A stretch of 64,000 nt of DNA from Nocardia farcinica (lineage in GTDB: Bacteria > Actinomycetota > Actinomycetes > Mycobacteriales > Mycobacteriaceae): contig NZ_LN868939.1 of NCBI RefSeq assembly GCF_001182745.1, forward strand, positions 2,108,001 through 2,172,000. The letters run 5' to 3'. Positions 31,902 through 56,668 of the stretch are shown here, in pieces; positions within the stretch are counted from its first letter, which is position 1; each line of letters begins with the position of its first letter. The translations under genes and the position numbers were made by a program. Below the pieces are notes generated by a model. The model was given only the letters and a program-made list of their open reading frames with translations, did not search any database and was not told where the DNA came from.

Positions 31902-31974
31902 GGGGCTATGGCGCAGCTGGTAGCGCACCACACTGGCAGTGTGGGGGTCAGGGGTTCGAGTCCCCTTAGCTCCA
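31902..31974 (+). tRNA. tRNA-Ala (anticodon GGC)
   Basis: A 73-base cloverleaf. Acceptor arms GGGGCTA and TAGCTCC pair with one G-U; the D arm is GCGCAGCTGGTAGCGC. The anticodon arm is CCACA-CTGGCAG-TGTGG with anticodon GGC, reading GCC alanine codons. The T arm is AGGGGTTCGAGTCCCCT. CCA is not encoded; the discriminator A is followed by CTTTTT. Confidence 0.96.
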
Positions 31975-31987
31975 CTTTTTCTTTCTG

Positions 31988-32311: not shown

Positions 32312-32706
32312 GTGCTCCCCGCGCATGCGGGGATGAGCCCCCGCGAAGCCTTCGCCGAGGCCGAAGGAATCCGTGCTCCCCGCGCATGCGGGGATGAGCC
32401 CGGGACCGACGTGGCGCGTGCCGAGGAATTCGAGTGCTCCCCGCGCATGCGGGGATGAGCCCCCCATGACCCCCACCGAGGTCGACGCCGCGTGGTGCTC
32501 CCCGCGCATGCGGGGATGAGCCCGGCAGGGCGAAGCGGGCGATGCCCGCCGACAGGTGCTCCCCGCGCATGCGGGGATGAGCCCTACGAGAGCAAGGGGA
32601 TCGGCCTGGTCCTCATGTGCTCCCCGCGCATGCGGGGATGAGCCCGGCGGATTCGGGGTGCGCTGATGCATCCGCTGGTGCTCCCCGCCCATGCGGGAAT
32701 GAGCCC
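32312..32706 (+). CRISPR. CRISPR array 1 (7 repeats, 6 spacers), type I-E
   Basis: Repeats of 29 bases start at 32312, 32373, 32434, 32495, 32556, 32617 and 32678, with 32-base spacers. The repeat is GTGCTCCCCGC-GCAT-GCGGGGATGAGCCC, with a 6-bp stem and GCAT loop. The last copy is degenerate (CCCATGCGGGAATG), marking the old trailer end. The leader is on the left. The array is unlinked from the cas operon, about 14 kb away, but has the same repeat family. Confidence 0.98.
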
Positions 32707-33723: not shown

Positions 33724-34230
33724 ACTTCGCGGCGTAGATCGTCGGCTTAGCTCCCTATTCCTCGAGCGCCAAGCATCGACGCCGACGCCATGCCGGCCGC
33801 CCTGTCGATCGCGGTCCCCGCTTCGAGCTGACTGTTCCGTGGACTCACTTCTCCTGCAACCGCGCCCACCTGCCCTTGTTCCGATACGTTCCGATCGGTC
33901 CGGTTGGCGCGTGGAGAAGCCGCCACAAGGCCACTTCTTCGCCTGTTCTACCGGTGCGGTATCGACATCATCCGCGAACCAGTCGTCCTGCTGAAGTCGA
34001 ACTTATTGAAGCCGCCCTCGACGCCTTGGCCAGCGTCGGGCTCGGCGACATGAGCGGCATCGAAAGGCGTGCCATCGAGCGCGTCTTCTGATGGAGTGGG
34101 AGGGGATTCGAAGCCTTGGCACGCTACCGGCAGGGCTGTCCGGTCGCCGGGCTGCGTCCAGAGTCCGGGCAAGAAGCGGCGCAGTTCGGCTCCATGTCTT
34201 CCATTCCTTTCTGGTCCGGTTGGGCCGCCA
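33724..34230. other. spacer DNA between the CPBP gene and array 2, no confident gene
   Basis: About 500 bases. A plus-strand frame ending at 34091 contains EVELIEAALDALASVGLG and may be the tail of a lost gene, but it has no supported start or recognisable domain. Base composition is less GC-rich than the flanks. No repeats were seen until the leader module at 34231. Confidence 0.45.
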
Positions 34231-34410
34231 CCGTGTGCTCGGCCACATTAGGGTAGTGGCGACGTTCGGGAGGGGGCCTTGCGCGTCGAGTCAATGGCAC
34301 CGTGTGTCTGGCTGTCGACCGGTGCGATGGTGAATGTCAGGGAGGTGAGGAGCTGGCTGAAAGTGAATGAAAACTGTGGACTCGTGCTGAGGAACTGCAG
34401 GTCAGGAAGT
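34231..34410 (+). promoter_or_regulatory. leader module of CRISPR array 2 (180 bp)
   Basis: This 180-base segment is nearly the same as 45646-45825 before array 3, from CCGTGTGCTCGGCC to GCAGGTCAGGAAGT, with scattered substitutions only. Its right part also shares AAAGTGAATGAAAA and CAGGTCAGGAAGT with arrays 1 and 4. The length match shows a duplicated module rather than chance similarity. Confidence 0.85.
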
Positions 34411-34853
34411 GTGCTCCCCGCGCACGTGGGGATGAGCCCGAGCCGCTGCTGACCGAGGAGCACCTGGCCGGGTGCTCCCCGCGCACGTGGGGATGAGCCC
34501 TCTTCGACCTCCCGATCAAAAGCCCTCCACCAGTGCTCCCCGCGCACGCGGGGATGAGCCCTGATCCGGGCGATCCTCGACGCCCTCACCGGCGTGCTCC
34601 CCGCGCACGCGGGGATGAGCCCTGAGCCGCGATACCTATCGAGCTACGTAGCCAGTGCTCCCCGCGCACGCGGGAATGAGCCCGAGAGTTACTGATCGGG
34701 ATGACTTGAGGGTGGGTGCTCCCCGCGCACGCGGGGATGAGCCCCGGCCACGGCGTCGCGTGTGGACCGGCGGCTCCTGCTCCCCGCGCACGCGGGAATT
34801 AGCCCGAGAAGCTGATCGTCGCCGACCTCTTCACGCTGTGCTCCCCGCGCATG
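34411..34853 (+). CRISPR. CRISPR array 2 (7 repeats plus a truncated eighth), type I-E
   Basis: Repeats start at 34411, 34472, 34533, 34594, 34655, 34716 and 34777, all 61 bases apart. The two leader-proximal copies read CCCCGC-GCAC-GTGGGG; the rest read CCCCGC-GCAC-GCGGGG. Repeat 7 is degenerate (CTGCTCC, GGGAATTAG). An eighth copy at 34838 keeps only GTGCTCCCCGCGCATG, whose core is of array-1 type, then breaks into unrelated DNA at 34854. The array lies just upstream of the Wadjet operon. Confidence 0.97.
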
Positions 34854-35211
34854 CTGCGTCGCGGCCGAGCGGGCGATGCAGTTGCCGATGGTCTCGAACA
34901 GCATCGGTAATCCGCGCGACCGGCCGCGACCCGGAGCCCGGTCATCAGGTGGGGGTCTTGCCGGTGCCGCGTGGGTCGCGAGAGTTCAAGTCCTTGGCGT
35001 GGGACGAAGGCACTTGGTCAACATGGGTCTATGGGCTTCCGTGGCGGTTCGGAGAGGCCGCCGGAGGCCGCGGAGTGACATGCCGTGCGGCGCCACGGAT
35101 CAGGTTGAGCCGCAAGGGCAAGTCCGCACTACCGAGATCGGCCCCTTTCCGCCGCGTCAGTGGATAGCATTGTCCACGTTGCCGATGAGTCCGAGCGAAC
35201 CTGAGATATCA
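34854..35211. other. region between array 2 and jetA, probable jet promoter
   Basis: About 350 bases with no confident gene. An open plus-strand frame includes SLAWDEGTWSTWVYGLPWRF but has no supported start and no recognised family. The AT-richer stretch TGGATAGCATTGTCCACG near 35160-35177 could hold the -10 region of the Wadjet operon. Confidence 0.4.
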
Positions 35212-36678
35212 ATGGATTTCGACGAGATCGACTTCCTGCGTCGCAGCGATCCCGCATGGCGGCTGTTGCGGGCTGACCACGCGCCCCTGGTCCTCAGTTT
35301 CTTGCGGAAGGTCTTCGTCGTGGACAACGTCCGGGCGATTTCGGCCACCGAGCTGGCCGGCCGTCTCGACGATGAGCTCTACGCACTCAACGAACAGCAT
35401 GGCGAGGCAACGTATCCCAAGGCTGCGAAGGCATACCTCGACGATTGGGCGGCGCCCGCGAACGGTTGGCTTCGGAAGTACTACCCCGCGGGCTCAGACG
35501 AGGCGCACTTCGATGCGACTCCTGCCGTGGAAAAGGCGCTGACCTGGCTCGAGTCTCTCCGCGTTCGTTCGTTCGTTGGTACCGAGTCCCGCTTGAACAC
35601 CGTATTCGAGCTGCTGCGCCAGATGGCTTACGGTGCGGAAACCGATCCCGATGTCCGGCTGGCCGAGTTGTACCGGCGGCGGAGTGCGATCGACGCGGAG
35701 ATCACCCAGGTCGCGGCCGGCCGCTTCGCTGTGCTCGATGATTCGGCTCAGCGCGACCGCTATCAGCAGTTCGCCGCGACCGCGCGAGAGCTGTTGGCCG
35801 ACTTCCGTGAGGTCGAGGCCAACTTCCGGGGACTGGATCGGTCGCTTCGTGCACGCATCGCCGGGTGGGCTGGAAGCAGGGGGCAGCTGCTCGATGAGGT
35901 GGTTGGCAATCGCGCCGCTATCACCGACTCGGATCAAGGGCGCAGCTTCCAAGCGTTCTACGACTTCCTTCTTTCGCATGAGCGGCAAACCGAACTCACC
36001 GAACTACTCGAGAAAGTCCAGTCGCTGGACGCGGTGGGCGAGACGGACCCGCGAATGCGCCACATCCACTACGACTGGCTCGACGCGGCCGAACGCACTC
36101 AGGCGACTGTGCGGTTGTTGTCGGAGCAGCTGCGCCGGTTCCTGGACGACCAGGTGTGGCTGGAGAACCGTCGGGTGATGGACATTCTGCACAGCATCGA
36201 GTCGTCCGCTCTCGCGCTCCGCGAGCGGCCCATTCCGGCGCTCACCTGCGAACTCGACGGCACCGCGCCGGTAATCGGACTGCCGATGGAACGGCCTCTC
36301 TACACCCCGAAGGAGAAGGTTTCGTTGGACAGTGCGGGTATCGCTGAGGCGGACGAGAACGTCGATGCGTCGGCGCTGTTCGAGCAGGTGTTTGTGGACC
36401 GTGAGCTGTTGTGTGGCGTGGTGCGCGGTGAGCTGCGCGAACGTGCCCAGGTCGGACTGCGTGAGGTATTGGGGCGTCGTCCATTGGAGCAGGGCATGGC
36501 CGAGCTGATCGCCTACCTCTCGCTCGACGACCCCGCTTTCCAGATCGTTTTCGACGAGGCGACGCGGGAGCAGGTGCGCTGGATAGACGACGGCGGCGCG
36601 GAGCGGGTGGCGACGATACCGCGGGTGACATTCATTCGGCCCTCGCACGGCGACCGTGCTGTCAGTGGACATCTTTAG
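35212..36678 (+). CDS. jetA: Wadjet defence protein JetA (DUF3375 family)
   Basis: First gene of a complete type I Wadjet operon. The 488-residue protein begins MDFDEIDFLRRSDPAWRLLR, the usual N-terminus of the family, and is mostly helical with winged-helix-like segments. JetA is the kleisin-like subunit (MukF analogue) that bridges the JetC ATPase heads in a condensin-like complex which senses and cleaves circular plasmid DNA. ATG 35185, nine codons upstream in frame, is an alternative start; both lack a strong ribosome site. jetB starts nine bases after the stop. Confidence 0.92.
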   Translation: MDFDEIDFLRRSDPAWRLLRADHAPLVLSFLRKVFVVDNVRAISATELAGRLDDELYALNEQHGEATYPKAAKAYLDDWAAPANGWLRKYYPAGSDEAHFDATPAVEKALTWLESLRVRSFVGTESRLNTVFELLRQMAYGAETDPDVRLAELYRRRSAIDAEITQVAAGRFAVLDDSAQRDRYQQFAATARELLADFREVEANFRGLDRSLRARIAGWAGSRGQLLDEVVGNRAAITDSDQGRSFQAFYDFLLSHERQTELTELLEKVQSLDAVGETDPRMRHIHYDWLDAAERTQATVRLLSEQLRRFLDDQVWLENRRVMDILHSIESSALALRERPIPALTCELDGTAPVIGLPMERPLYTPKEKVSLDSAGIAEADENVDASALFEQVFVDRELLCGVVRGELRERAQVGLREVLGRRPLEQGMAELIAYLSLDDPAFQIVFDEATREQVRWIDDGGAERVATIPRVTFIRPSHGDRAVSGHL

Positions 36679-36687
36679 CATGGCGGG

Positions 36688-37290
36688 GTGTCCACTTCTC
36701 TGCGTCGCGACGAGCTCGACCTGCCGTTGGTCATCACGCACCTGATGAAGGGGGTGGTCTACGCGGACAGTCACGAGAAGGTTTGGCGGAATCTGTTGCC
36801 GTTGCAGCCTCAGGTGCGCGACTACGTGGGGGTGATGGGCCTGACCGTCGTTGTCGACGAGACCGAGGGGTATGCCTTCCTGCGGTCGAAGCCGGAGGCC
36901 GACGACGACGGGAAGCTGCCCCGCCTGATTCCGCGGCGTGCTCTGTCGTTTCACGTGAGTCTGATGCTGGCCCTGCTGCGGAAGAAGCTCGCGGAGTTCG
37001 ACGCCTCCGGTGCCGACACCCGGCTGATCCTCACCCGGGATCAGCTCGTGGAGATGGTGCGGATGTTCCTGCCCGAGAGCAGCAATGAAGCACGGCTGGT
37101 CGATCAGATCGACACATTGCTCGGCAAGGTCATCGATCTCGGCTTCTTGCGGCGGATCGCCGGTCAGGACGCCGCCTACGAGGTGCGGCGCATCCTCAAG
37201 GCGTTCGTGGACGGGCAGTGGCTGGCCGAATTCGACCAGCGGCTCGGCGAGTACATCGAGCAACTCGATGACGTGGAGGGGGCGCACTGA
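36688..37290 (+). CDS. jetB: Wadjet defence protein JetB (DUF4194 family)
   Basis: A 200-residue protein, the MukE-like (kite) subunit of the Wadjet complex. It begins LDLPLVITHLMKGVVYADSH and contains GFLRRIAGQDAAYEVRRILKAFVDG near the end, a winged-helix motif typical of DUF4194. It dimerises on JetA and contacts DNA. Start GTG 36688. Its stop overlaps the jetC ATG by one base (TGATG), so jetB and jetC are translationally coupled. Confidence 0.92.
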   Translation: MSTSLRRDELDLPLVITHLMKGVVYADSHEKVWRNLLPLQPQVRDYVGVMGLTVVVDETEGYAFLRSKPEADDDGKLPRLIPRRALSFHVSLMLALLRKKLAEFDASGADTRLILTRDQLVEMVRMFLPESSNEARLVDQIDTLLGKVIDLGFLRRIAGQDAAYEVRRILKAFVDGQWLAEFDQRLGEYIEQLDDVEGAH

Positions 37291-40200
37291 TGAACGGTCT
37301 GTTCAGCGCGGTCGGTCTCGACTCCGAGGAGTCCGGCCTCGCCGGGTACCGGCTGGAGCGGTTGGAGGTCTACAACTGGGGGACTTTCGACCAACGGGTG
37401 TGGCATTTCCGTCCTGAGGGGCGCAACTGCCTGCTGACCGGCGATATCGGCTCCGGAAAGTCGACCATTGTCGATGCGATCACGACATTGCTGCTACCCG
37501 CGCACCGTATTTCCTACAACAAGGCAGCGGGGGCCGACGCGAAGGAGCGGGATCTCCGCTCGTATGTACTCGGCTACTACAAGTCGGAGCGGAACGAGGC
37601 GACCGGAGCGTCCCGGCCTGTCGGGTTGCGAGATCGCCGGTCGTTTACGGTTGTCCTCGCAACCTTCACCAACGTCGGCTACGACTCGACGGTGACGCTG
37701 GCCCAGGTGTTCTGGTTCCGTGACACCTCTGTCGGTCAGCCGGACCGGTTCTATGTGACAGCGGATCGGAGCTTGACGATCGCGGAGGATTTCGCCGAGT
37801 TCGGTGGGGACATCGGCACACTTAAGCGTCGGCTGCGTAAGCAGGAGGCTCGCGTCCACGACCATTTTCCGTCCTATAGCAAGGACTTCTGCCGACGGCT
37901 CGGAATCGAGTCCGAGCAGGCAATGGAGTTGTTCCATCAGACGGTGTCGATGAAATCGGTGGGCAACCTGAACGACTTCGTCCGTTCCCACATGCTGGAG
38001 CCGTTCGACGCCGCGGACTGGACCGGTCGGCTCGTCCACCATTTCGAAGACCTGACCAAGGCACATGAAGCGGTGCTCAAAGCACGCACACAGCTCACCA
38101 TGCTCGAACCCCTGCTCGCCGAGTGCGACAGCTACGACGAGCTCGACGCGCGGATCGCCGCAGGCAAGGCCGAACGGGAAGCACTCCGGTTCTACTGTGC
38201 CGATCGCAAGGTGACGCTTCTCGTCAACCGGCTTTCGAGCCTCGATGTCGAGCTCGGTCAGCAGGAGGCGGCCGGCGCCGACGCGGAGGCCGAGCTGAAA
38301 CGGCTGCGCCGAAAGGAACGGAATCTGGAACTCGAGCGAGCGGGCTGCGGGGGTGATCGAATCAGACAGCTCGAAGCCGAGATCGTCTCCGAGGAGGCCG
38401 AACGCGCCCGGCGACGGAAACGACACGACCACTATCAGTCGCTGCTGGTGGCCGCCGAGCTGCCCGCAGTCGTGGACGCGGCACAGTTCGCCGCCCGGCG
38501 TCACGCTGTCTGCGAAAGGCAGAGCGGACTCGACCAGGAAAAGGCCGAGCTGCAGAACCGACTCACCGATCTTGCTGTCACGCGTCGCACGCTCGACGAC
38601 GAAGCCAGGGAGATCAACACTGAACTGCTGAGCTTGCAGCAGCGGCGCAGCAACATTCCTAAGAGCAGCCTGGACATGCGCGAACAACTTTGTGCTGCAA
38701 CGGGAGTGGATTCCGCCGCGCTGCCGTTCGCCGGCGAGCTCATCCGGATTCGTGCGGACAGCGCCGAATGGGAAGGGGCAGCTGAGCGGCTGCTGCGCAG
38801 CTTCGGGCTGTCGATGCTCGTCTCGAGCGAGCACTATGACGTCGTCTCCGAGTGGATCAACGAACGGCATCTCGGCATCAAGCTCGTCTACTACCGAGTG
38901 CCGGAACGGCTGAGCCGGACTCCGTCTCCAGCACTGTCGGAAGGGTCGCTATTCAGGAGATTGGAGATCAAGGACTCGCCGTTCTCGGAGTGGCTGGAAC
39001 GTGAACTGGCACACCGCGCAGACTACGAGTGCGTCCACACCATGGCGGAGTTCCGGCGCGTCGCCAAGGCTGTCACCAGGACCGGGCAGATCAAAGGCGC
39101 TCGCGGCAGGCACGAAAAAGACGACATACGCCGGATCGACGACCGCCGCCACTACGTCCTGGGCTGGGACAATCAAGCCAAGATTGACGCCCTGCTCGGC
39201 CAGGCGAGCAGATTGCACGATCAAACGCGTGACAACGACGTGCGAAGACAAAAGGTCGACGACGAGCTGACCGCGAAAGTTAGGCTCGGCACCACACTGT
39301 CCTTGCTCGAGCAGGTCGACGAGTTCGACGAAATCGACTGGCAGGCGTCGGTCAACCGAATCGCCGAACTCGCCGACGAGAAGACGCAGCTGGAACAGCA
39401 GTCTGACGAGTTGCAACGACTGACCTCCGAGCTGGCGACCATCGCTACCCGGATCAAGGAGGTCGAAGCTGTCCAGAAGCAGGCGCAGACGGAGTTCGGA
39501 AATCTCGATGGCCAGCGCAGAACCACGGCTGGGCAACTCCGCGACACGAAGGCCACGCTGGATGAACCAGCAGCCGCATCCGCCAAGGCATGGTTTGCTG
39601 CTGTGGACACGCGTGTCGGGGACAGGAACCTCGTCACCCCGGACGACTGCGATACCTGCCGCATCGAGGTGAACGACGCGATCACCACCGAAATCGATCG
39701 GCTCACCGGCCAGCAGAACAAGGCTGCGGCGCGCGCGGTCGCAAGGATGGGAGACTTCCGTAGGGAGTACCCGTTGGAAACCGTTGAGTTCGACAATTCG
39801 GTGCAGTCGGCAGGTGAATACCGGTTGTTGCACAAACGGATATCATCGGACGACCTGCCTCGATTCGAGTCCGAGTTCAAGACCTATTTGAACACCAACA
39901 CTATTCGCGACATCGCGGGTTTCCATTCTCAGCTGACGAAGCAGGCAGAGCTGATCAAGCGGCGGATCGAAACCATCAACGACTCGCTGGTCGACATCGA
40001 CTACAACCCCGGACGGTTCATCCGGCTCGAGCCACATCCGACGGTGAATGTCGAGGTCCGTGACTTCCGCAAAGCACTCCGGGAGTGCACCAGTGGATCG
40101 TTGAGCGGCGACGATTCCAACCAGTACTCCGAACAGAAGTTCCTCCAGGTAAAGGCACTGATCGAACGGTTCAAGGGGCGGGAGGGGCACACCGAATCCG

Positions 40201-40682
40201 ACCGGCAGTGGACCCGCCGGGTCACCGACGTGCGAAATTGGTTCGCTTTCTCCGCTTCCGAACGGTGGCGCGCCGATGACACCGAGCACGAGAACTACAC
40301 CGACTCCGGCGGCAAATCCGGTGGCCAGAAGGAGAAACTCGCCTACACGATTCTCGCGGCGTCGCTGGCCTACCAGTTCAAGCTCGATTGGGGGGTGAGC
40401 AGGTCGAAGACCTTCCGATTCGTGGTTATCGACGAGGCTTTCGGCCGCGGTTCCGACGAGTCGACCCGGTTTGCGCTCGATCTCTTCCGGCGGTTGGGTC
40501 TGCAACTCTTGATCGTGACCCCATTGCAGAAGATCCATGTCATCGAACCCTATGTGTCGGCGGTCGGATTCGTGGACAACAAGACGGGTGACGGCTCGCG
40601 GTTGCAGACCTTGACGATCGAGGAGTATCAGCAGCGCCAACTCGCTCACGCTATCGCCACCGCTTCGGACCAGGGTGGCTGA
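37290..40682 (+). CDS. jetC: Wadjet SMC-like ATPase JetC
   Basis: A 1130-residue condensin-like ATPase (MukB-like) that extrudes DNA loops in the Wadjet complex. Walker A GDIGSGKST is at residues 51-59, the ABC signature region SGGKSGGQKEKLAY near 1005-1018, and Walker B FRFVVIDEAFGRG with Glu1049 near the end. Between them lie two long Glu/Arg/Leu-rich coiled-coil arms (about 280-470 and 650-820) and a hinge-like globular segment around 490-620. All motor motifs are intact. It overlaps jetB by one base and jetD by eight. Confidence 0.95.
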   Translation: MNGLFSAVGLDSEESGLAGYRLERLEVYNWGTFDQRVWHFRPEGRNCLLTGDIGSGKSTIVDAITTLLLPAHRISYNKAAGADAKERDLRSYVLGYYKSERNEATGASRPVGLRDRRSFTVVLATFTNVGYDSTVTLAQVFWFRDTSVGQPDRFYVTADRSLTIAEDFAEFGGDIGTLKRRLRKQEARVHDHFPSYSKDFCRRLGIESEQAMELFHQTVSMKSVGNLNDFVRSHMLEPFDAADWTGRLVHHFEDLTKAHEAVLKARTQLTMLEPLLAECDSYDELDARIAAGKAEREALRFYCADRKVTLLVNRLSSLDVELGQQEAAGADAEAELKRLRRKERNLELERAGCGGDRIRQLEAEIVSEEAERARRRKRHDHYQSLLVAAELPAVVDAAQFAARRHAVCERQSGLDQEKAELQNRLTDLAVTRRTLDDEAREINTELLSLQQRRSNIPKSSLDMREQLCAATGVDSAALPFAGELIRIRADSAEWEGAAERLLRSFGLSMLVSSEHYDVVSEWINERHLGIKLVYYRVPERLSRTPSPALSEGSLFRRLEIKDSPFSEWLERELAHRADYECVHTMAEFRRVAKAVTRTGQIKGARGRHEKDDIRRIDDRRHYVLGWDNQAKIDALLGQASRLHDQTRDNDVRRQKVDDELTAKVRLGTTLSLLEQVDEFDEIDWQASVNRIAELADEKTQLEQQSDELQRLTSELATIATRIKEVEAVQKQAQTEFGNLDGQRRTTAGQLRDTKATLDEPAAASAKAWFAAVDTRVGDRNLVTPDDCDTCRIEVNDAITTEIDRLTGQQNKAAARAVARMGDFRREYPLETVEFDNSVQSAGEYRLLHKRISSDDLPRFESEFKTYLNTNTIRDIAGFHSQLTKQAELIKRRIETINDSLVDIDYNPGRFIRLEPHPTVNVEVRDFRKALRECTSGSLSGDDSNQYSEQKFLQVKALIERFKGREGHTESDRQWTRRVTDVRNWFAFSASERWRADDTEHENYTDSGGKSGGQKEKLAYTILAASLAYQFKLDWGVSRSKTFRFVVIDEAFGRGSDESTRFALDLFRRLGLQLLIVTPLQKIHVIEPYVSAVGFVDNKTGDGSRLQTLTIEEYQQRQLAHAIATASDQGG

Positions 40683-41847
40683 CGTGACCTCGACCAGTTG
40701 GACCGTGCCCGACGATGTGCTGGGCAAACTGCGGCGGCGATGGACTCGTGGCGAGTTCCTGTCCCAGTTCGCCACCGGAATGCCCTGGCAGCCGATGGCG
40801 ATCGGAATACGGGGGCCGAGCGTGCAGGACATCGTCACCGATCTGGACAGCGCCCGTGCCTGGGTCGAACAGTGGCGCCGTGTGCGCAAGCTTCGCGTCG
40901 AGATGAGACCGGTCGGTGGTCGAGTTGTCGGCTCGAACACGATTCCCCGCCGCGTCTGGGTCGACTCCTACGAGCAGCTGTGGAGCGTCCTCGGTGTGCA
41001 GTCGGCAGTGGAATCGTTCACGATCCTGCTCGACGCGACCCGGCGCAGGGCTCCCGCCATCGCCGAGTGGATGTCCGACAAACCGATGGAAGTACTCGAG
41101 TATCTGGACGAGTGGCCTCGGCTGGTCGACACCGCCCTGTGGATAGATGCGCACGCGCGTCCTGGCATGTACGTTCGGCAGATCGATGTGCCCGGAGTCG
41201 ACACCAAGTTCGTGGAACGCTTCCGCCCGGTGCTGGGAGCGTTGCTGGACCGTCTGCTCCCGGAGGAGCGTATCGACCGCAGCAAGTCCCCGTCCGATTT
41301 CATCGGCCGGTACGGTTTCCGCCCGAAGCCTTCCTACATCCGGTACCGGCGCTTGTCCGATGGACCTGGATTCAGCGAACTCGCCGTCCGAGTATCAGAG
41401 CTGGCCGACATGCCGCTGGCGGAGCGCACAGTGTTCGTGGTGGAGAACGAGATCACCTACCTCGCGTTCCCGCAGGTCGAGGACGCTGTCGTATTTTTCG
41501 GCGAGGGCTACGCAGCATCTCGGTTACGTACTCTGACGTGGCTGGATCAGCGGAACCTCGTCTATTGGGGAGATATCGACACCCACGGATTTGCGATCCT
41601 GAACAGCCTGCGCCGCTCATTCGCGGGTGCACGGTCCATGCTGATGGACCGCGCCATCCTCCTTGCCCACGAGATTCACTGGATCACCGAACCGGATCCC
41701 ACCAGCGAGCACCTCGAGGCGCTCACGCCAGAGGAATCGAGCCTCTACACCGACCTCGTGGAGGGGGTCATCGGCAGGTCCGTGCGGCTCGAGCAAGAAC
41801 GCATCTCCTACGCCGTAATCGAAGATGCCATCCGGCAGTTCCGCTGA
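40675..41847 (+). CDS. jetD: Wadjet nuclease subunit JetD (DUF3322/DUF2220, Toprim-like)
   Basis: A 390-residue protein and the effector that cuts extruded plasmid DNA. The N-terminal DUF3322 region spans about residues 1-190. The C-terminal Toprim-like DUF2220 domain carries VFVVENEITYLAF with Glu257 and Glu259, and YWGDIDTHGFAIL with Asp300 and Asp302 as the metal-binding acidic set. Start GTG 40675 lies inside the jetC end. With jetA-jetB-jetC directly upstream, the operon is complete and all catalytic residues are present, so the system is probably functional. Confidence 0.94.
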   Translation: MADVTSTSWTVPDDVLGKLRRRWTRGEFLSQFATGMPWQPMAIGIRGPSVQDIVTDLDSARAWVEQWRRVRKLRVEMRPVGGRVVGSNTIPRRVWVDSYEQLWSVLGVQSAVESFTILLDATRRRAPAIAEWMSDKPMEVLEYLDEWPRLVDTALWIDAHARPGMYVRQIDVPGVDTKFVERFRPVLGALLDRLLPEERIDRSKSPSDFIGRYGFRPKPSYIRYRRLSDGPGFSELAVRVSELADMPLAERTVFVVENEITYLAFPQVEDAVVFFGEGYAASRLRTLTWLDQRNLVYWGDIDTHGFAILNSLRRSFAGARSMLMDRAILLAHEIHWITEPDPTSEHLEALTPEESSLYTDLVEGVIGRSVRLEQERISYAVIEDAIRQFR

Positions 41848-42340
41848 CCGGGTATGTGCCCATGCCGCCGGGGTACCGCGGCCTGCGTGGCGACGCTGCG
41901 CTGCTGACGGGACCCCGATGATCGGTACGCCAACCGCGCACATCGCAACGACCTTGCTCCGGGGTTCGATCCAGTCGACACAGGCTTCGAAATCGTCTGA
42001 CCGTCGAGCGCGGGGCAAGCCCGCGAGCTCGAGCACGCTGTCGGCGAAACAGCAGAAGCAGTGGCAAGCGTTTGCGCGGTCGTGGTTCGCAGAGCATCCG
42101 GACCGTTCCGCTCGTGAGTGCCGCCAGGCGCGGGGTTGGAGCAGGCGTTGTTCGCGCGGATTCGGTCGGACGGGCGATGTCGACGAGATGCGCCACCGTC
42201 GACGAGGAGACGCTCCGCTGCGGATCGAATCGACGCACGGCCGGGCGGGCGACGAGCGCGGCCAGGCGCGCGGCGTCGGCATCGCGCGGCTCCTGACCGG
42301 GCCGCTCGGTCGGCGATCTTCGCTCGTCGCTCGCGGTCAC
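41848..42340 (-). pseudogene. nitroreductase-like gene remnant
   Basis: From GTG 42340, which overlaps the nucleotidyltransferase stop by four bases (GTGA), the minus strand encodes about 60 residues resembling a nitroreductase N-terminus (ALVARPAVRRFDPQRSVSS, VAHLVDIARPTESAR). After that the frame continues but the sequence stops resembling the family, with coding-like fragments in other frames. It faces the end of jetD. Probably a decayed downstream partner of the nucleotidyltransferase. Confidence 0.4.
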
Positions 42341-43125
42341 GCAACGTCGATCCCGTCAGCGAGGTGAGCCGTCGCGCTACGCAGACGCGCGCGGGCGAGG
42401 GCGCCGGCCTGGGCCACGACATTCGCGAGTGTGCCATGATCGGCCGCGGCGATCACCCCGTCGATCTCCTGCAGGCGGGCCGCATGCAGCAGCCTCTTGT
42501 CGTTCGTCGTCCATGCGCCCTCCGCGGCGAGGACAGCATGGGCGAACTGGCATGCGGCGACCGCGATCGATCCCACGCACTGGGTCACCATGCCGCGGGG
42601 GGCGTGATTGGCGGCTGCGTAGGCCAGGGTGAGTTCCGCCATCCGCTCCCACCGCGCCGACGCGAAACGGCGCAGCGCATCGGGGAACTCGTCGACGACC
42701 GGCACCTCCCCGCGCAACGTCCGCCCCAGCGCCAGCTCTGCGACGATCAGGTAGGTCGGAATCCCGGCGAGGTGGAACATCAGGGGTTCGACATCGAACT
42801 CGCCGCGCCGCGCACGGGCAATCTCCGCTTCGACCACATCGAGGTCGCGGTAGTGCACGTCGACCCTGCGCCCCCCGACGGTGAGCCAGGCTCCCCCGTT
42901 GAACACACCTCCACCCCACCCGCCGACTGCGGACACCTCGCCCTCCCATCCGACGGCGCGCAGGTGCTCGGGATCGAACGCGCCTCGGTAGTAGATCGCC
43001 AGATCCCAGTCGCTGTCCGCTGCGGCGGTGCCCTGCGCGCGCGAGCCGCCGAGTGCGACGCCCTCCACGGTCGGCAGCGCCGCGAGAGCGTCGGCGATGC
43101 CGTTCAAGAATATGTCGTCGGTCAT
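42337..43125 (-). CDS. nucleotidyltransferase-domain protein (ANT-like)
   Basis: A 262-residue protein. The polymerase-beta-type nucleotidyltransferase motif GGSRAQGTAAADSDWDLAIYY (Asp pair in SDWDLA) is near residue 30, with a later VDVHYRDLDVVE acidic segment. The C-terminal part is a helical four-helix-like domain. Relatives adenylylate aminoglycosides or small molecules; the target here is unknown. Start ATG 43125 is preferred because GAAGGAG lies seven bases upstream, while ATG 43131 abuts that site. Convergent with the Wadjet operon and in line with the MFS gene. Confidence 0.83.
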   Translation of the reverse strand: MTDDIFLNGIADALAALPTVEGVALGGSRAQGTAAADSDWDLAIYYRGAFDPEHLRAVGWEGEVSAVGGWGGGVFNGGAWLTVGGRRVDVHYRDLDVVEAEIARARRGEFDVEPLMFHLAGIPTYLIVAELALGRTLRGEVPVVDEFPDALRRFASARWERMAELTLAYAAANHAPRGMVTQCVGSIAVAACQFAHAVLAAEGAWTTNDKRLLHAARLQEIDGVIAAADHGTLANVVAQAGALARARLRSATAHLADGIDVA

Positions 43126-43165
43126 CCTCATCTCCTTCTTCCGTTCGAACCGCTCGTCCCCTGTG

Positions 43166-44689
43166 TCACGGCGCAGGAGACGGCTTGGTGTCAGCCGAGG
43201 AGCCAGCGGAACGGCACCGGAGGGTGACGGCCAGCACGACGCCGGCGAGCAGGCACACCCCGGCACCGATCAGCGAGGCGGTGACGACGCCGTCCCCGTA
43301 GGCCGCGATCACCGCCTGCAACATTTCCGCGTCGCCCCGGAAGACCTCCATGCCGCCGCCGACCGTCTCGAACGCTCGGGGCTCCGACGGCGCGAGCTCG
43401 TATATGGCGCGGGTGTACACCGTCGCCGCCGCCGTCCCGAGAATCGCGATACCCATTGCGCCGCCGAGCTCGGTGCTACTCTCCGCCAGACCGGATGCGC
43501 TTCCCGTGCGGGCCGGCGGCGCCTCTGCGAGGATGAGCGCGCTTGCCGTCGGCGTGGCCAGACCGGCCCCGGTCGTGATCACGAGGTAACCGAGCAGGAA
43601 CGTCCACAGCGTGCCCGGCGCGCCCCACCACGCCACGACGCAGAACCCGGCTCCGGCGATCGCCACACCGATGACCAGAATCGCCGCGCGGGGGAAGCGG
43701 GTTGGGATGGCCGCGGCGACACCGGCACCGACGAGCGTGCCGGCGAATGCGGGCAGGGCCCACAGAGCCGCCTGCAGCGCGCTGAGCGAGTGGGTCGTCT
43801 GCACGAACGTGAACGCGAGGGAGCCGAGGCCGGTGAGCGCCAATGCGACAGTCGCGTTGGCCGCCACCGCGGCTCTGAAGCGCCTGTTACGGAACAGCGA
43901 TGCGTCGATCAGCGGGTAGGCGATGCGTCGATGGCGCTGGACGTACGCGGTGACCCCGATCGCAGCGAGCACGACCGCGCCCGCGGATGCGGCATCGGGC
44001 CCCTCGGACACCGTGTGCTTCACCGCGAACGCCGCCGCGATGATGCTCACGGTCACAAGCGCGGCTCCTGGAAGATCGTACGGATGCGGCGTGGTGCTGC
44101 GCGACTCCGGGAGCAGCCAGGATGCTGCCACGACCAGAACCAGCATCACGGGAACGTTCACGAGAAAGACCGACCCCCACCAGAAGTGCTCCAGCAGCAC
44201 CCCGCCCACGATGGGTCCCAGTACCGACCCACCGGCGAACGCCACCGTCCACGCGGACACCGCAATGCCTCGCTCTCGCTCCGCCGCGAACATGTCTCGG
44301 ATCAGCGCCAACGTGGAGGGGGCGAGCGTGGCTCCCCCGACGGCGAGGGCTGCTCTTGCGACGATGAGGATCTCCGCCGTCGGCGCGAAGGCCAGCAAGG
44401 CGGAGGCGATGCCGAACAATACCGCGCCGATGATGAGCAGCCGCCGTCGACCGATCCGATCGCCGAGGCCACCCATCGGCAGCAGCAGTCCCGCAATCAC
44501 GAAGCCATAGATGTCCATCGCCCACACCATCTGCGAGGCGGTCGGATCCAATGCGACGGAGATCTCCGGTGCGGCCACGAACAGGATTGAAATGTCCATG
44601 GAGACCAGAAGCGCCGGCAGAAGCAGCAGCAGGAGGCCCGCCCACGTCCTCGCGGTGGCACGTGCGTGGGGCGGCGCTGTGGAGGACAT
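43166..44689 (-). CDS. MFS multidrug efflux transporter, DHA2 (14-helix) family
   Basis: A 507-residue pump with about fourteen hydrophobic segments. Family marks are LVSMDISILFVAAPEI in helix one, LGDRIGRRRLLIIGAV (motif A), and AFAGGSVLGPIVGGVLLEHFWW (motif C of drug-proton antiporters) in helix five. Start ATG 44689. The gene is transcribed away from a TetR gene, with a perfect inverted repeat in between, so drug-inducible control is likely. Substrates of relatives include quaternary ammonium compounds and dyes. Confidence 0.9.
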   Translation of the reverse strand: MSSTAPPHARATARTWAGLLLLLLPALLVSMDISILFVAAPEISVALDPTASQMVWAMDIYGFVIAGLLLPMGGLGDRIGRRRLLIIGAVLFGIASALLAFAPTAEILIVARAALAVGGATLAPSTLALIRDMFAAERERGIAVSAWTVAFAGGSVLGPIVGGVLLEHFWWGSVFLVNVPVMLVLVVAASWLLPESRSTTPHPYDLPGAALVTVSIIAAAFAVKHTVSEGPDAASAGAVVLAAIGVTAYVQRHRRIAYPLIDASLFRNRRFRAAVAANATVALALTGLGSLAFTFVQTTHSLSALQAALWALPAFAGTLVGAGVAAAIPTRFPRAAILVIGVAIAGAGFCVVAWWGAPGTLWTFLLGYLVITTGAGLATPTASALILAEAPPARTGSASGLAESSTELGGAMGIAILGTAAATVYTRAIYELAPSEPRAFETVGGGMEVFRGDAEMLQAVIAAYGDGVVTASLIGAGVCLLAGVVLAVTLRCRSAGSSADTKPSPAP

Positions 44690-44712
44690 GGTGTATGAGC
44701 CTTCCGGTCGTA

Positions 44713-44742
44713 CGTACGTACGTCAAATTAGACGTACGTACG
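44713..44742. promoter_or_regulatory. palindromic operator between DHA2 pump and tetR
   Basis: A perfect 12-base inverted repeat, CGTACGTACGTC (44713-44724) and GACGTACGTACG (44731-44742), flanks AAATTA. Built of alternating GTAC steps, it fills the short divergent gap and overlaps the likely promoters of both genes. Typical position and size for a TetR operator. Confidence 0.82.
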
Positions 44743-44752
44743 ATAGCATGCC

Positions 44753-45334
44753 GTGGTGACTCAACGAGAAGATCTGCTCGAGGCTGCGAAGCGCTGCATC
44801 GTCGACAAGGGGTACCACCGCACCACCGCGCGCGACATCGCGACGGCTGCGGGATCTCATCTCGCATCGATTGGTTACCACTTCGGGTCCAAGGACGCCC
44901 TGATGAACCTCGCCGCACTCGAGGCCCAGAGCGAATGGGGTGACCTCATCGCGGCTGCCGTGCAGAACGCACGAGCGTCCAGCTCGTCCGAGCGGCTGAC
45001 GATCGCTCTTCGTGCGCTGCTGTCGTCGATGCCGGAGCACAGGGAGCTGCTGGTCGCGAGCGCCCAGGCCTTCGCACATGCCGCATTTGCCGAGGACATC
45101 CGAGAATCGCTCGCGTACGCGACGGGCGAGGCCCGGCGTGAGTTGGCCGGACTCGTACTGGACGACCCGCCAGCGGCAGGGGAACGAGGTGAAGCGGTCG
45201 GCAGCATTGTCCACGCGCTCATCGTCGGTCTCGCCATGCAGGCGCTCCTGGACCCGGATTCGCTTCCGTCCCCGGAAGAGATCACGGCCGCGCTCGTTGC
45301 GGTCGGCAGCTCCACGACCCGAGATGAGAGCTGA
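44753..45334 (+). CDS. TetR/AcrR-family transcriptional regulator
   Basis: A 193-residue repressor with helix-turn-helix EDLLEAAKRCIVDKGYHRTT, then ARDIATAAGSHLASIGYHFG with SKDAL. The ligand domain is Ala/Leu-rich. Two successive GTG codons (44753, 44756) can start it. It lies opposite the DHA2 pump across the GTAC-rich palindrome and would repress both. The stop overlaps the ATG of the truncated reductase gene by one base (TGATG). Confidence 0.9.
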   Translation: MVTQREDLLEAAKRCIVDKGYHRTTARDIATAAGSHLASIGYHFGSKDALMNLAALEAQSEWGDLIAAAVQNARASSSSERLTIALRALLSSMPEHRELLVASAQAFAHAAFAEDIRESLAYATGEARRELAGLVLDDPPAAGERGEAVGSIVHALIVGLAMQALLDPDSLPSPEEITAALVAVGSSTTRDES

Positions 45335-45645
45335 TGACCCCTCGGTCGCACCTGGCGTGGCGTTCCTTCGTCGCCATGAGCCTCGGTGGATTCATCGCCC
45401 GACCGGATGGTGACGTGCGGTGGCTCGAAAGTCTGCCGACGGACAGAGGCCACGTCACGACGAGCGCAGCGAACCCCGCCCTGGTATGGGAGACGTTCTT
45501 CCCCGACATCGACGCGCTGGTGATGGGGCGAAGCACGTACGAGAAGGTGCTGACGTTCGGCGACTGGCCCTTCCCCGGTCTGACAACGCTGGTGCTCAGC
45601 AATGCGCTCGACACCGACGACGACAACATCGAGCCGGGGCTGTCT
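45334..45645 (+). pseudogene. dihydrofolate-reductase/RibD-C-family protein, truncated by the array-3 leader
   Basis: ATG 45334 opens a RibD C-terminal/DHFR-like domain: SFVAMSLGGFIARPDGDVRWL, then FFPDIDALVMGRSTYEKVL and GLTTLVLSNAL. Family members continue for another 80 or so residues. Here the frame crosses at 45646 into the 180-bp leader module of array 3 and stops 21 bases later. The 3' half of the gene is gone. It is translationally coupled to tetR. Confidence 0.8.
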
Positions 45646-45825
45646 CCGTGTGCTCGGCCTTATTAGGGTAGTGGTGACGTTTGGGAGGGACCTGGCCCGT
45701 CGAGTCGATGGCACCCGCGTGGCTGGCTGTTGACCGGGTGCGATGGTGAATGTCGGGGAGGTGAGGAGCTGGTTGAAAGTGAATGAAATTGTGGACTCGG
45801 GCTGAGGGACTGCAGGTCAGGAAGT
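45646..45825 (+). promoter_or_regulatory. leader module of CRISPR array 3 (180 bp)
   Basis: Nearly the same as 34231-34410 over all 180 bases, starting CCGTGTGCTCGG and ending GGTCAGGAAGT. Its left edge is exactly where the reductase gene is interrupted, so this copy arrived as a unit together with array 3, or replaced the gene's 3' half by recombination. Confidence 0.85.
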
Positions 45826-46475
45826 GTGCTCCTCGCGGACGCGGGGATGAGCCCAGGTGTCAACCGGGGCACCACACACCACAAGGGTGCTCCCCGCGGA
45901 CGCGGGGATGAGCCCCGGCCCAATCGGGGCACCCAAGCTGATGTACCGTGCTCCCCGCGGACGCGGGGATGAGCCCGGGCGCGAGACGGTGGCGGCGGTG
46001 CGGTGGCGGTGCTCCCCGCGCACGCGGGGATGAGCCTCTAGCGCGCGCGTTTCGGGTGTCTGCGCCCTCGTGCTCCCCGCGCACGCGGGGATGAGCCCGG
46101 CGCGAACGCCGCGCTCGGCGCGACTCTCATGTGCTCCCCGCGCGCGCGGGGATGAGCCCGTGAACACGGTGACCGGCCCGTACCGGCTGTTGTGCTCCCC
46201 GCGCACGCGGGGATGAGCCCGTCATCCCGCCGCCCGTGGTGTTGACCGCGTAGTGCTCCCCGCGCCCGCGGGGATGAGCCCCCTGCCCGAATCCCCATCC
46301 GATCTGCTCAGCGGTGCTCCCCCGTGCACGCGGGGATGAACTCCAAGATCTGCATGTAGGAGGACCGTCGTTCGGTGCATCGAAGTCGACATGCTCCCGG
46401 CACATGCCGGACGAGCCCGGTCCGCCGATACCGTCATCGACCGATCCGGGTGCTCCCCCGCACGGGAGCAACCCC
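45826..46475 (+). CRISPR. CRISPR array 3 (8 good repeats plus degenerate trailer copies), type I-E
   Basis: Repeats start at 45826, 45887, 45948, 46009, 46070, 46131, 46192 and 46253, 61 bases apart. Repeats 1-3 have stem loop CCCCGC-GGAC-GCGGGG (repeat 1 also CTCGC), the older ones have GCAC, GCGC or GCCC loops. The copy at 46314 has an extra C and altered end. Two worn copies follow near 46391 (TGCTCCCGGCACATGCCGG) and 46450. The decay grows with distance from the leader, so the right side is the ancestral end. Confidence 0.96.
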
Positions 46476-46578
46476 TCGGCTGACAACACGCACCGCGCCG
46501 CGTGTTGCCCGCGCCTGCGGGCGGTAGGACACACGACGACCGAGCGGCCGAGCGTTCCAAATTTTCTGGTTTAACTCC

Positions 46579-46606
46579 TGCAAAATCGGGTATCGCTTGC
46601 TATCCT
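46579..46606 (+). promoter_or_regulatory. candidate promoter of the cas operon
   Basis: In the AT-rich stretch ahead of cas3, CTGCAA (46578-46583) and TATCCT (46601-46606) are spaced 17 bases and could be -35 and -10 elements. The region between array 3 and cas3 holds no gene. Confidence 0.35.
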
Positions 46607-46708: not shown

Positions 46709-49453
46709 GTGCTCGGTACCGCGACCTTGTCTGCGTGGGCGAAGAGTGATCGCGAGGGTGGAAGCCTCTCTCTCGTAAGACATCTCGCTGATTCCGGTGA
46801 GGTCGCGAAGTTGGTCTGGGACCGTTGGCTGCCGGCCCATACACGGCAGCGGATCTCGGTCGGCCTCCCTGGCGGCGAAGCGGATGGACGGACGCTGCTC
46901 GTCTGGCTGGCGGCTACGCACGACATCGGGAAGCTCACGCCGGCATTCGCGTGCCAGGTTCCCGAGCTGGCCGACGCGATGCACGACCGAGGGCTGCGAA
47001 TGCCGGATGCGCTCGGTGACCGAAAGGCATTGCCGCACAGTCTGGCCGGCGAGGTAACGGTGCTCGAGTTCCTGACCGGCCTGGGGTGGGACCGTGAGGT
47101 GGCCAAGACGTACGCCGTGGTCGCCGGTAGTCATCACGGTGTCCCGCCGACCGTCCGCGAGGTGCGGAACGCTCCGGCTCGGACCACACTGTTCGGCGAG
47201 GGCCAGTGGTCGCGGTCTCGCGACGAGCTGCTGCGGTTCGTCACCGAGCGGACGGGCGCGTGGGAGCTGCTGGAGCGTTTGCGCCGAATCCCCTTGACCG
47301 TGACTCAACAAAGTCTGCTCACGGCCGCCGTCATCGTCACGGATTGGATCGCAAGCAATCAAGATCTCTTTCCGCTGGATGAGGCGCGTGTGTCGAGCAC
47401 TGCCGCGCCGGCGGTGTGGGAGCTGCTCGGCCTGCCGCACCCGTGGCAACCGTCCGCGTCCGAGCTGCACGACGACCCATCGCAGCGGCGGTTCTTCTGC
47501 GACCGGTTCGGCTGGCCGCCGTCCATTCATCCGCGTCCGCTACAGCTCGAATGTCTACGAGTCGCTGACGTAACGCCCGTTCCCGGACTGATGGTCGTGG
47601 AAGCGCCGATGGGCGAGGGGAAGACGGAGGCCGCGCTCGCCGCCGCCGAGATACTCGCGCAGCGGTTCGGTCTCGGTGGCATATTCGTCGCACTGCCGAC
47701 GATGGCGACCTCCGACGCGATGTTCGCGCGCGTTCGGAAGTGGGCAGAGAACCTGCCCGTCCCGCCCGCGGCGATGTTCCTCGCGCACGGGAAAGCAGCG
47801 TTGAATGCGGAATTCACCTCGCTGCATCGCCGGGGCTTCGACAGCATCGGCACCGATTGCGCAGACAGCGGCGTTGTCGCGCACGCCTGGTTCGTCGGCA
47901 AGAAGGGCCCTCTGGCGAACGTGGTGGTAGGCACGATCGACCAGATCCTACGGGCGGCCTTGAAGACCCGGCATCTGATGTTGCGCCATCTTGCGCTGGC
48001 CAACAAAGTGGTTGTCATCGACGAGGTGCATGCCGCGGACAGTTACATGTCGACGTACCTGTGCCGGAGTTTGGAATGGCTGGCTGCCTACCGGGTGCCC
48101 GTCATCCTGCTGTCGGCGACACTGCCGCCGAGCCAGCGAGAAGCACTGGTACTGGCCTACGCACGTGGATACGGAACCGGCGACGACGAGGTCTGCCTTA
48201 CCGACCACGGCTACCCGGCCATCACGCATTGGCCGAATCCCGAGCTGAGTACGACGGTGGCCGCGTCGGGCCGCTCGATCGCCGGCATCGAGATCGCCCA
48301 CGTGGCAGACGATCTCGACGTATTGGCCGAACGAGTCCGTGAAGCCCTGGCGGACGGCGGCATCGCCGGGGTGGTATGCAATACCGTCGCACGAGCGCAG
48401 GAAACCTACCTGGCCCTGGAGCAGGCTGGCTTTCCCGAAGACGAATTGCTGCTGATCCATTCACGGTTCGTCGCCAGCCACCGCGCCGAGCTGGAGGCAC
48501 GCCTGCGAGCGATGCTGGGACCGCCGGACGGTGGAACGGTGCGGCCCGATCGTCTCGTCGTGGTGGGCACGCAGGTGATCGAACAGTCACTGGACATTGA
48601 TCTGGACCTGCTCATCACCGATTTGGCGCCGATGGACTTGCTGTTGCAACGCATCGGTCGCCTACACCGGCATGACCGGCAGGCACGTCCGCCGAAACTC
48701 GTGCGCCCGAGCTGTTGGGTGCGGGGCGCGGACTGGAACGAGGAGCCGCCCCAACCGGTGCGGGGCTCGCAGGCGGTTTACGGCCTGGCCCGCCTGCTGC
48801 GCTGTGCCGCGGTGCTGCGCCGGCGCGCCGCCCTGACCGTGCCCGACGATGTGCCGGGACTGGTAGCCGACGCCTACCGCGAACAGCTCGAGGTGCCCAC
48901 CGACTGGCTCGCCGCCTACCACCTGGCGGAGAAGCAGTGGCACGAACACGTCGACCGCCAGCGAGAGAAAGCGCGAACCTATCTGTTGTCAGCTCCCTAC
49001 GGCGACAATCGAACCCTCCACGGCTGGGTGGCTACGGGAATCCCGGACGACGCCGACGGCGTTGGCGGCCAAGCCCAAGTTCGCGACGCGGAGGACACCA
49101 TCGAAGCGATCGTCGTCCAACGGTGCGGTGACCATGTGCGGGCGCTCCCGCAAGTGCCGGAAATCGGAGGAACGACGGTGCCGACCGATGCGGAACCGCC
49201 GGTGTGGCTCGCCAAGAAGCTTGCCGCCTGCACCATCCGGCTGCCCGCCATGCTCACTCGCTACGGACGCAGCGGCACCGTCATCCGTGCACTCGAAGAC
49301 ACGTGGTATCCGGGATGGCAGCGGGTGCATTGGCTGGCAGGCGAATTGGTCCTGGAACTGGATGAGCAGTGCACTGCCGAGCTCGCCGGGCACCATCTCG
49401 AGTACGACACCCGGCTCGGACTTCTGGTGGCCCCCGTAAAGGAGGGGAAATGA
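46709..49453 (+). CDS. cas3: CRISPR-associated helicase-nuclease Cas3 (type I-E)
   Basis: Recruited by Cascade to unwind and degrade target DNA. The 914-residue protein has an N-terminal HD nuclease domain (ATHDIGK, His71-Asp72; later VVAGSHHGVPP), then a superfamily 2 helicase with Walker A MGEGKT (Lys305), DEVH at 438-441, SAT motif LLSATLPP, and the C-terminal motif QRIGRLHRHDR. All nuclease and ATPase residues are present. Start GTG 46709. Its stop overlaps the cse1 ATG by four bases. Confidence 0.97.
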   Translation: MLGTATLSAWAKSDREGGSLSLVRHLADSGEVAKLVWDRWLPAHTRQRISVGLPGGEADGRTLLVWLAATHDIGKLTPAFACQVPELADAMHDRGLRMPDALGDRKALPHSLAGEVTVLEFLTGLGWDREVAKTYAVVAGSHHGVPPTVREVRNAPARTTLFGEGQWSRSRDELLRFVTERTGAWELLERLRRIPLTVTQQSLLTAAVIVTDWIASNQDLFPLDEARVSSTAAPAVWELLGLPHPWQPSASELHDDPSQRRFFCDRFGWPPSIHPRPLQLECLRVADVTPVPGLMVVEAPMGEGKTEAALAAAEILAQRFGLGGIFVALPTMATSDAMFARVRKWAENLPVPPAAMFLAHGKAALNAEFTSLHRRGFDSIGTDCADSGVVAHAWFVGKKGPLANVVVGTIDQILRAALKTRHLMLRHLALANKVVVIDEVHAADSYMSTYLCRSLEWLAAYRVPVILLSATLPPSQREALVLAYARGYGTGDDEVCLTDHGYPAITHWPNPELSTTVAASGRSIAGIEIAHVADDLDVLAERVREALADGGIAGVVCNTVARAQETYLALEQAGFPEDELLLIHSRFVASHRAELEARLRAMLGPPDGGTVRPDRLVVVGTQVIEQSLDIDLDLLITDLAPMDLLLQRIGRLHRHDRQARPPKLVRPSCWVRGADWNEEPPQPVRGSQAVYGLARLLRCAAVLRRRAALTVPDDVPGLVADAYREQLEVPTDWLAAYHLAEKQWHEHVDRQREKARTYLLSAPYGDNRTLHGWVATGIPDDADGVGGQAQVRDAEDTIEAIVVQRCGDHVRALPQVPEIGGTTVPTDAEPPVWLAKKLAACTIRLPAMLTRYGRSGTVIRALEDTWYPGWQRVHWLAGELVLELDEQCTAELAGHHLEYDTRLGLLVAPVKEGK

Positions 49454-55602: not shown

Positions 55603-56668
55603 GTGCTCCCCGCGCGTGCGGGGATGAGCCCCGCGAGATGCTGGAGCGGCTGATGAAGACCCGGTGCTCCCCGCGCGTGCGGGGATGAGCCGGCAATTTT
55701 GGTGGCGTGCTCGTAGTAGACCGGGTGCTCCCCGCGCGTGCGGGGATGAGCCACTGTGATTGACAGTGTGGAAATCTACGTATGCGTGCTCCCCGCGCGT
55801 GCGGGGATGAGCCCGACACGACCCTGCAGCGGATCGTGATCGCCTGGTGCTCCCCGCGCGTGCGGGGATGAGCCCCAGCCGCCGCTCATGATCGGCGAGG
55901 AACATCAGTGCTCCCCGCGCGTGCGGGGATGAGCCCAGCCCAGCGCAGCGACCACCCGACCAGGTGGGGTGCTCCCCGCGCGTGCGGGGATGAGCCCACG
56001 GTCGCCCGAGCGATCAACGAGCTACAGAAGTGCTCCCCGCGCGTGCGGGGATGAGCCCGCCTTCGACCCGGCCGACATGACCGCCGCGTCGTGCTCCCCG
56101 CGCGTGCGGGGATGAGCCCGCAGGCGCGAGCGCAGCTCGCGAACGACGGCGGTGCTCCCCGCGCGTGCGGGGATGAGAAACCGGCGTGCGGGAAAAGGTG
56201 CAGGCCGTGGTAGTGCTCCCCGCGCGTGCGGGGATGAGCCGGCGAGACCCACGGCCGCACCATCGGCATCGGCGTGCTCCCCGCGCGTGCGGGGATGAGC
56301 CCGGCGGCATCACCCGCACCGTCACCATCCAGCTGTGCTCCCCGCGCGTGCGGGGATGAGCCCCTTGACCGGGGTGTTCGCGCGTTCGGCTTCCCGTGCT
56401 CCCCGCGCGTGCGGGGATGAGCCCCCGATGACCGCCATCCCGCCACCCAAGCGGACGTGCTCCCCGCGCGTGCGGGGATGAGCCCCGGTCCTCACCCGTG
56501 TCGGGCCCGCGGTACTGGTGCTCCCGGCGCGTGCGGGGATGAGCCCTCGAACGGCAGCGTCCAGAGGTCGCCCTCGGTGTGCTCCCCGCGCGTGCGGGGA
56601 TGAGCCCCAGCCAGCAGCGAATGCGTTGGCGGTCAGCATGTGCTCCCCGCGCGTGCGGGAATGAGCCC
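55603..56668 (+). CRISPR. CRISPR array 4 (18 repeats, 17 spacers), type I-E, cas-linked
   Basis: Repeats begin at 55603 and recur every 61 bases up to 56640. The repeat is GTGCTCCCCGC-GCGT-GCGGGGATGAGCC plus a variable 29th base. That base is usually C, but G after repeats 2 and 11 and A after repeat 3, as expected if it comes from the incoming spacer. Repeat 10 ends GAGAA. Repeats are near-uniform except repeat 16 (CCCGGCGCG) and the last (GGGAATG). The longest and most uniform array, next to cas1-cas2, and so probably the main site of acquisition. Confidence 0.98.

Follow-up and report, generated by a model that had tools for sequence, protein, structure and literature searches.

A truncated reductase gene stands directly upstream of a CRISPR array (array 3) in the stretch of Nocardia farcinica DNA analysed here (64,000 nucleotides, hereafter the window), and we consider it likely that this arrangement arose when a foreign segment of about 3.5 kb became joined to the upstream flank of the array, which was already resident next to cas3. 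We infer that the segment, and not the array, arrived last. The truncated gene is most likely a scar of gene transfer in a defence island, ordinary and well kept, and what looks like a gene severed by a CRISPR leader becomes explicable through an uninterrupted relative, according to which the foreign part is the gene and not the array. In addition, the comparisons set a sequence-based limit of ~55 bp to the leader shared across the genus and document two sister arrays that kept their leaders and have no spacer in common.

The truncated reductase and the segment that carries it

The reductase fragment (45334..45633, + strand) comprises codons 1-100 of a DHFR/RibD_C-type gene whose 3′ half is missing; the open reading frame itself encodes 110 amino acids. 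Database proteins matching it were 173-193 amino acids long in 57 out of 59 cases, in a search that admitted only proteins up to 1.75 times the query length. When 20 of these 59 matches were aligned (P0001-P0019, of 175-193 amino acids, and P0024), the C-terminal half with its Y(V/I)DGG motif was conserved in all 19 of the former, while P0024, a short homologue of 105 amino acids on a 510-bp contig, perhaps owes its length to the end of the contig. P0001, an intact relative of 185 amino acids, matched the RibD_C family (PF01872); the fragment of the window had no Pfam match at E 0.001, and the full-length RibD_C domain is absent from it. P0001 was also the closest protein, being identical at 86 out of 91 residues (residues 10-100), and it diverged directly after E100 (45631-45633). 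The DNA match to L111, a 19.9-kb stretch of genome G502, likewise stopped at this GAG codon (45633), the blastn local alignment reaching 45637. Since the relatives go on past the break, the gene of the window is truly truncated. The preliminary description had recognised the truncation and kept the gene intact to about codon 104; the alignments to P0001 and L111 moved the last matching codon to 100, and homologues do not naturally end at this point, as it had conceded they might. Where SLDG stands in the 20 other aligned sequences, the fragment has SLGG; its first codons give PLGRTWRG, near the P0001 start, in the next frame only, which suggests two compensating indels around residues ~3-9. 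Altogether, the gene remnant is decaying.

The fragment forms the right end of a segment (42150..45633) that is collinear with L111:6605-10091 and has a severed gene at either end. On the - strand the segment holds the N-terminal ~63 codons of a nitroreductase (42150..42340), cut by its left end, a nucleotidyltransferase-like gene (42337..43266; PF01909/PF18765) and an MFS transporter gene (43166..44689). These are followed on the + strand by a gene for a TetR-family regulator (44753..45334), whose stop overlaps the reductase start. L111 carries nitroreductase, nucleotidyltransferase, MFS, TetR and an intact reductase in the same order, and blastn aligned it with positions 42153-45637 of the window in one piece, at 86.9% identity over 3496 columns. 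Its reductase is complete (185 amino acids), lies directly after tetR and is 91% identical to P0001, and no I-E-like repeat (8 or fewer mismatches) was found in the 19.9 kb. The search for an uninterrupted reductase gene suggested in the preliminary description thus succeeded, in another actinomycete and in a CRISPR-free stretch. At the right edge, 11 out of 12 bases agreed between window and L111 in the last full step and 2-5 out of 12 beyond it. At the left edge, agreement started at about 42150, within the nitroreductase frame, which in L111 continues with PF00881 support and of which the window keeps only the beginning. Broken inside a gene on both sides, the segment looks like a captured piece of DNA. 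By-eye inspection of the joins at 42150 and 45633 revealed neither a target-site duplication nor terminal inverted repeats, and no transposase is present among its five genes.

The closest relatives of the segment's proteins lie outside the genus. Among 150 genomes of the genus, the TetR of the window was found as its own copy, the next best match being at most 47% identical, whereas outside the genus it was 95% identical to a metagenome protein and 86% identical to a protein of Saccharomonospora cyanea (P0062). P0061, a relative of this TetR, was searched against 397 genomes of the order and had matches at E up to 1e-60 in four of them (the own genome, G502 at 89% and two others at 56-57%). 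The MFS transporter had a 96% identical counterpart in Streptomonospora nanhaiensis, placed by NCBI in the Streptosporangiales, very probably a different order from that of the host. For reductase, TetR and MFS alike, relatives 95-96% identical were found outside the genus, and the foreign element is the ~3.5-kb segment with its gene rather than the array. The dN/dS ratios between window and L111 were 0.16 for MFS, 0.11 for TetR and 0.08 for reductase codons 10-100, the nucleotidyltransferase being left outside this test because its L111 reading held a stop. These low values indicate constraint for most of the divergence, and hence a fairly recent truncation, and they leave the order of events unsettled. 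Between MFS and tetR, at 44709-44743, a long palindrome (CGTACGTACGTACGT...ACGTACGTACG) was seen by eye; it is a predicted, and likely, TetR operator.

Searches for the missing 3′ half returned nothing resembling it. In the window, five full-length homologues (L002, L018-L021) gave only chance-level matches to the 3′ half (best E 0.059), and with the L018 homologue the matches in the whole genome, outside the window copy, were at most 38% identical. Searching the own genome with the C-terminal half of P0001 (E up to 0.001) brought up paralogue-like matches and nothing else, none above 42% identity, and a weaker match to P0001 reached 51% over 44 residues at E 1.15; the lost half, if present, would be expected near ~90% identity or more. 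It was not found beyond array 3 or beyond array 4 either. For an intact reductase, the viral contigs searched contained four pattern stretches, none of them a relative, and the plasmid search returned 103 records, of which none reached 60% identity. Since the 3′ half is missing, a plain insertion of the array into the reductase is disfavoured, while models that add a deletion can accommodate the absence of this half.

The junction, the leader and the four arrays

The junction (45634..45636, with an uncertainty of 0 to about 12 bp) separates the segment from a block upstream of array 3 (45637..45825, + strand) that has a paralogue upstream of array 2 (34222..34410, + strand). The two blocks were identical at 168 out of 191 alignment columns (88% by whole-genome search) and, stretch by stretch from the repeat outward, at 50/55, 43/46, 42/51 and 33/39 positions. 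The preliminary description had paired two 180-bp blocks (34231-34410 and 45646-45825), and these matched well, with a local score of 256, whereas 300 shuffles reached at most 30. The switch into an array-2-like module that it placed at 45646 was borne out, with the shared block beginning 9 bp further left, and the foreign gene does meet the array-3 upstream block at a precise junction. It had also taken the 180-bp block for a complete leader, a reading that could not be kept, as the core common across the genus is only ~55 bp long (45771-45825 at array 3, 34356-34410 at array 2).

Specifically, when the array-2 block was compared with 25 leaders of relatives, 19 exceeded the best of 20 shuffles, and 17 of these 19 matches were confined to the final 68 bp (GAAAGTGAATGAAAA...GGTCAGGAAGT); of the other two, a weak one (29 vs 27) reached -91 and one fell at a non-matching place. 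The remaining 6 out of 25 leaders showed no similarity above shuffles, so that the term shared leader rests on the others. Inside the window, array 1 shared ~96 bp and array 4 ~55 bp with the array-2 upstream block, and upstream of these ~55 bp in array 4 the Cas2 frame begins. The leader block was found in the own genome only among 60 genomes, and across 150 genomes of the genus in three, of which one is the own and the other two match over 37 and 50 query bases. The extra ~130 bp common to arrays 2 and 3 reflects descent and not leader. The junction lies ~135 bp outside the genus-wide leader core, and array 3 would consequently keep the sequence expected for spacer uptake and transcription.

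The nine bases that follow the break in the L111 reductase (CTGGTCCGG) are also found, identical, at 34211-34219, just outside the array-2 block, their only occurrence on the + strand of the window. A match of nine or more was obtained in 1.2% of 4000 random draws, a figure calculated post hoc. We considered CTGGTCCGG as a microhomology used at the joining, and the present junction does not keep it. Simple end-joining does not explain this match near array 2.

The four arrays, all on the + strand, have repeats of 29 nt and spacers of 32 nt, with one spacer of 33 in array 3. Array 1 (32312..32706) has 7 repeats; array 2 (34411..34853) has 7, then an eighth broken off after 16 nt (34838-34853), and its distal end was therefore probably lost in some rearrangement. 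Array 3 (45826..46343) has 8 repeats, the first with 2 mismatches to the consensus used, plus a degenerate one at 46315, and array 4 (55603..56668) has 18 and lies directly after cas2. The commonest repeat type is GCACGC in arrays 2 and 3, GCATGC in array 1 and GCGTGC in array 4. At their leader ends, the first two repeats of array 2 (GCACGT) and the first three of array 3 (GGACGC) carry private changes, and both arrays also have a few single repeat variants. No spacer was common to arrays 1-4, the best pairwise scores being 11, and for arrays 2 and 3 this points to an old duplication. By their sequences these two arrays are old sisters derived from one leader-array. The preliminary description had read the junction as direct evidence that a leader-array unit moved as a block; the 189-bp block and the GCACGC repeats agree with the origin of arrays 2 and 3 from one such unit, and it is the landing in the gene that the junction does not bear out. 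The leader-end repeat of array 3 (45826-45854) has a further private change, CCTC for CCCC, suggesting that probably no spacer has been added after this change came about. Elsewhere in the genome, two more arrays of the same repeat family (L095 and L096, with 21 and 6 repeats found) carry the same leader core.

Genomic setting of array 3

Array 3 is followed by a type I-E locus in which cas3 (46709..49453, + strand) precedes cas8e ... cas1, cas2. Cas3 contained both HD and helicase domains, and the PADLOC models for Cas8e, Cas5e, Cas6e, Cas1e and Cas2e were matched; the single open reading frame examined between cas8e and cas5 (51102-51545) had no PADLOC match. At E up to 1e-50, 30 out of 150 genomes of the genus (the own one among them) had a relative of cas3, and the neighbourhoods of the best-scoring 15 of the 29 other genomes were compared, with distances between array and cas3 derived from array coordinates. 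A same-strand array was located upstream of cas3 within 440 bp in 11 out of 15 and within 1.4 kb in two more (L081 and L091), L091 having a small opposite-strand repeat group in between. The two exceptions were L094, with two repeats 1.7 kb away, and L085, with an array on the opposite strand. In a comparison of 25 proteins of the window, some of them from unproven open reading frames, with 11 of these 15 loci, matches were confined to cas3, cas8e and cas1, indicating that no gene of the segment or of the Wadjet system described below is nearby in those 11 loci. Nine regions upstream of the cas3-proximal array were read by eye as open reading frames, and they contained what we take to be IS3-like (L086) and IS110-like (L088) transposases and, in L092, presumably a WXG100-like cluster. 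The conserved position of the array together with the differing upstream content indicates that array 3 belongs to a conserved unit whose upstream side is variable, and this side looks insertion-prone.

On a larger scale, the region is an island site of the genus, marked by a tRNA-Ala(GGC) gene (31902..31975, + strand), and holds a defence island with Wadjet and type I-E CRISPR. The tRNA gene is the last part of a left block conserved with eight relatives, and variable content starts there. Three open reading frames of the left flank (27827-29551, 29700-30986 and 31021-31761) and the tRNA-Ala were conserved in 8 out of 8 relatives fetched, which were the best matches of the 29700 gene, itself present in 143 out of 150 genomes. 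No I-E-like repeat (7 or fewer mismatches) was found in the fetched 16-20 kb of any of the eight, and right of the tRNA-Ala their content differed from that of the window in all of them, bar a Wadjet system in one (L102). The Wadjet system of the window (JetABCD, 35203..41852, + strand) is of type I, with jetA, jetB, jetC and jetD all found by PADLOC models. It is 86.6% identical in nucleotides to the L102 block, which in another species of the genus follows the same tRNA-Ala (8959-15611 with the tRNA turned to +) in a fetched stretch free of I-E repeats. A second copy of the tRNA-Ala 3′ end was not found in the window, giving no sign of an integrase-type insertion; the genome has one other copy, which differs by one mismatch and lies on the same contig at a distance of 554 kb. 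The ~300 bp between Wadjet and the segment (41853-42149) matched neither L102 nor L111, and the one frame tried there had no Pfam match. The insert between arrays 2 and 3 consists of at least two pieces, the Wadjet block and the segment.

Origin of the junction and comparison with known systems

These observations fit best with a joining in which the segment, running from the broken nitroreductase through nucleotidyltransferase, MFS and TetR to the broken reductase, would have met the flank of an array 3 that was already in place. Both edge genes would have been severed at the joining, the 3′ half of the reductase would never have been brought in or would have been lost, and the ~55-bp leader of array 3 would have been left untouched. 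As the joins showed neither a target-site duplication nor a terminal inverted repeat, and the segment no transposase, we infer that the joining was illegitimate and end-joining-like. The right edge could also stem from a later deletion and not mark where the captured piece originally ended. The preliminary description favoured the reverse, in which array 3, a copy of array 2, would have entered the reductase as a block. Such an insertion would account for the precise join, the 189-bp block common to array 2 and the same commonest repeat type, but it is very unlikely given that array 3 already occupies its conserved cas3-proximal place, that the segment is of foreign origin and is broken at both ends, including a second, unrelated edge at about 42150, and that the 3′ half of the gene was found neither beyond array 3 nor in the genome. 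The junction moreover lies outside the leader, and the arrays have no spacers in common and blocks that diverge by 12%.

The same join would result if the whole locus from array 3 through the cas genes to array 4 had moved to a segment that was part of the island before it, landing beside or within the reductase, and the 3′ half had been lost; in this respect the direction is unproved. That the cas3-proximal array and the cas genes occur together in the genus, and that their neighbours in the window are absent beside them in 11 relatives, would suit such a move. We nevertheless judge it improbable, if somewhat less so than a block insertion, considering that the left end of the segment is broken too, that arrays 1-2, related to array 3, are already on the left in the same island, and that the 3′ half is missing beyond array 4 as well. 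There is also little chance, in our estimation, that a circle with a leader-array and cargo entered by a single crossover and placed Wadjet and the segment between arrays 2 and 3, the join of gene and leader having pre-existed on the donor. Arrays 2 and 3 do lie as direct repeats on either side of 34854-45633, the last repeat of array 2 is cut short at 34853, and leaders 12% apart are what two lineages might have; however, the Wadjet system after the same tRNA-Ala in L102, where I-E-like repeats are lacking, implies cargo of at least two pieces of different origin.

The joining of the segment to the flank of resident array 3 also bears on transcription. The TetR-controlled operon continues directly into array 3, which has the same orientation, and no terminator-like site separates the two; the only such site in 44650-46720 was at 46542, beyond array 3 (0.5 expected by chance). 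Read-through from tetR may thus be possible. That array 3 is in fact transcribed by read-through from the tetR promoter, under a drug- or metabolite-sensing repressor, seems a long shot from the sequence; if true, crRNA production would be regulated in an unusual way.

According to PMC12814883, multiple arrays can originate through duplication, through transfer or when insertions split an array, and array pairs of type I-E are almost always in one orientation. Like the pairs presented there, arrays 2 and 3 share a leader block and the commonest repeat type, but they share no spacers and have a truncated foreign gene between the copies. The surroundings resemble tRNA-anchored islands, in that core genes and tRNA-Ala recur at the left side of 8 out of 8 relatives fetched and the content on the right differs, and depart from the integrase type in the window's lack of a second tRNA 3′ end. 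As in type I Wadjet systems (JetABCD), all four genes are present, here as an island neighbour of the truncated gene. In the type I-E locus of Streptomyces avermitilis, as described in PMC4762764, the upstream array is split by four transposase genes. Both loci have cas3...cas2 between an upstream and a downstream array and foreign DNA at the upstream array. They differ, by that description, in that the upstream array runs with the cas genes here and against them in S. avermitilis, and in that the foreign DNA ends outside the leader here, whereas there it splits the array.
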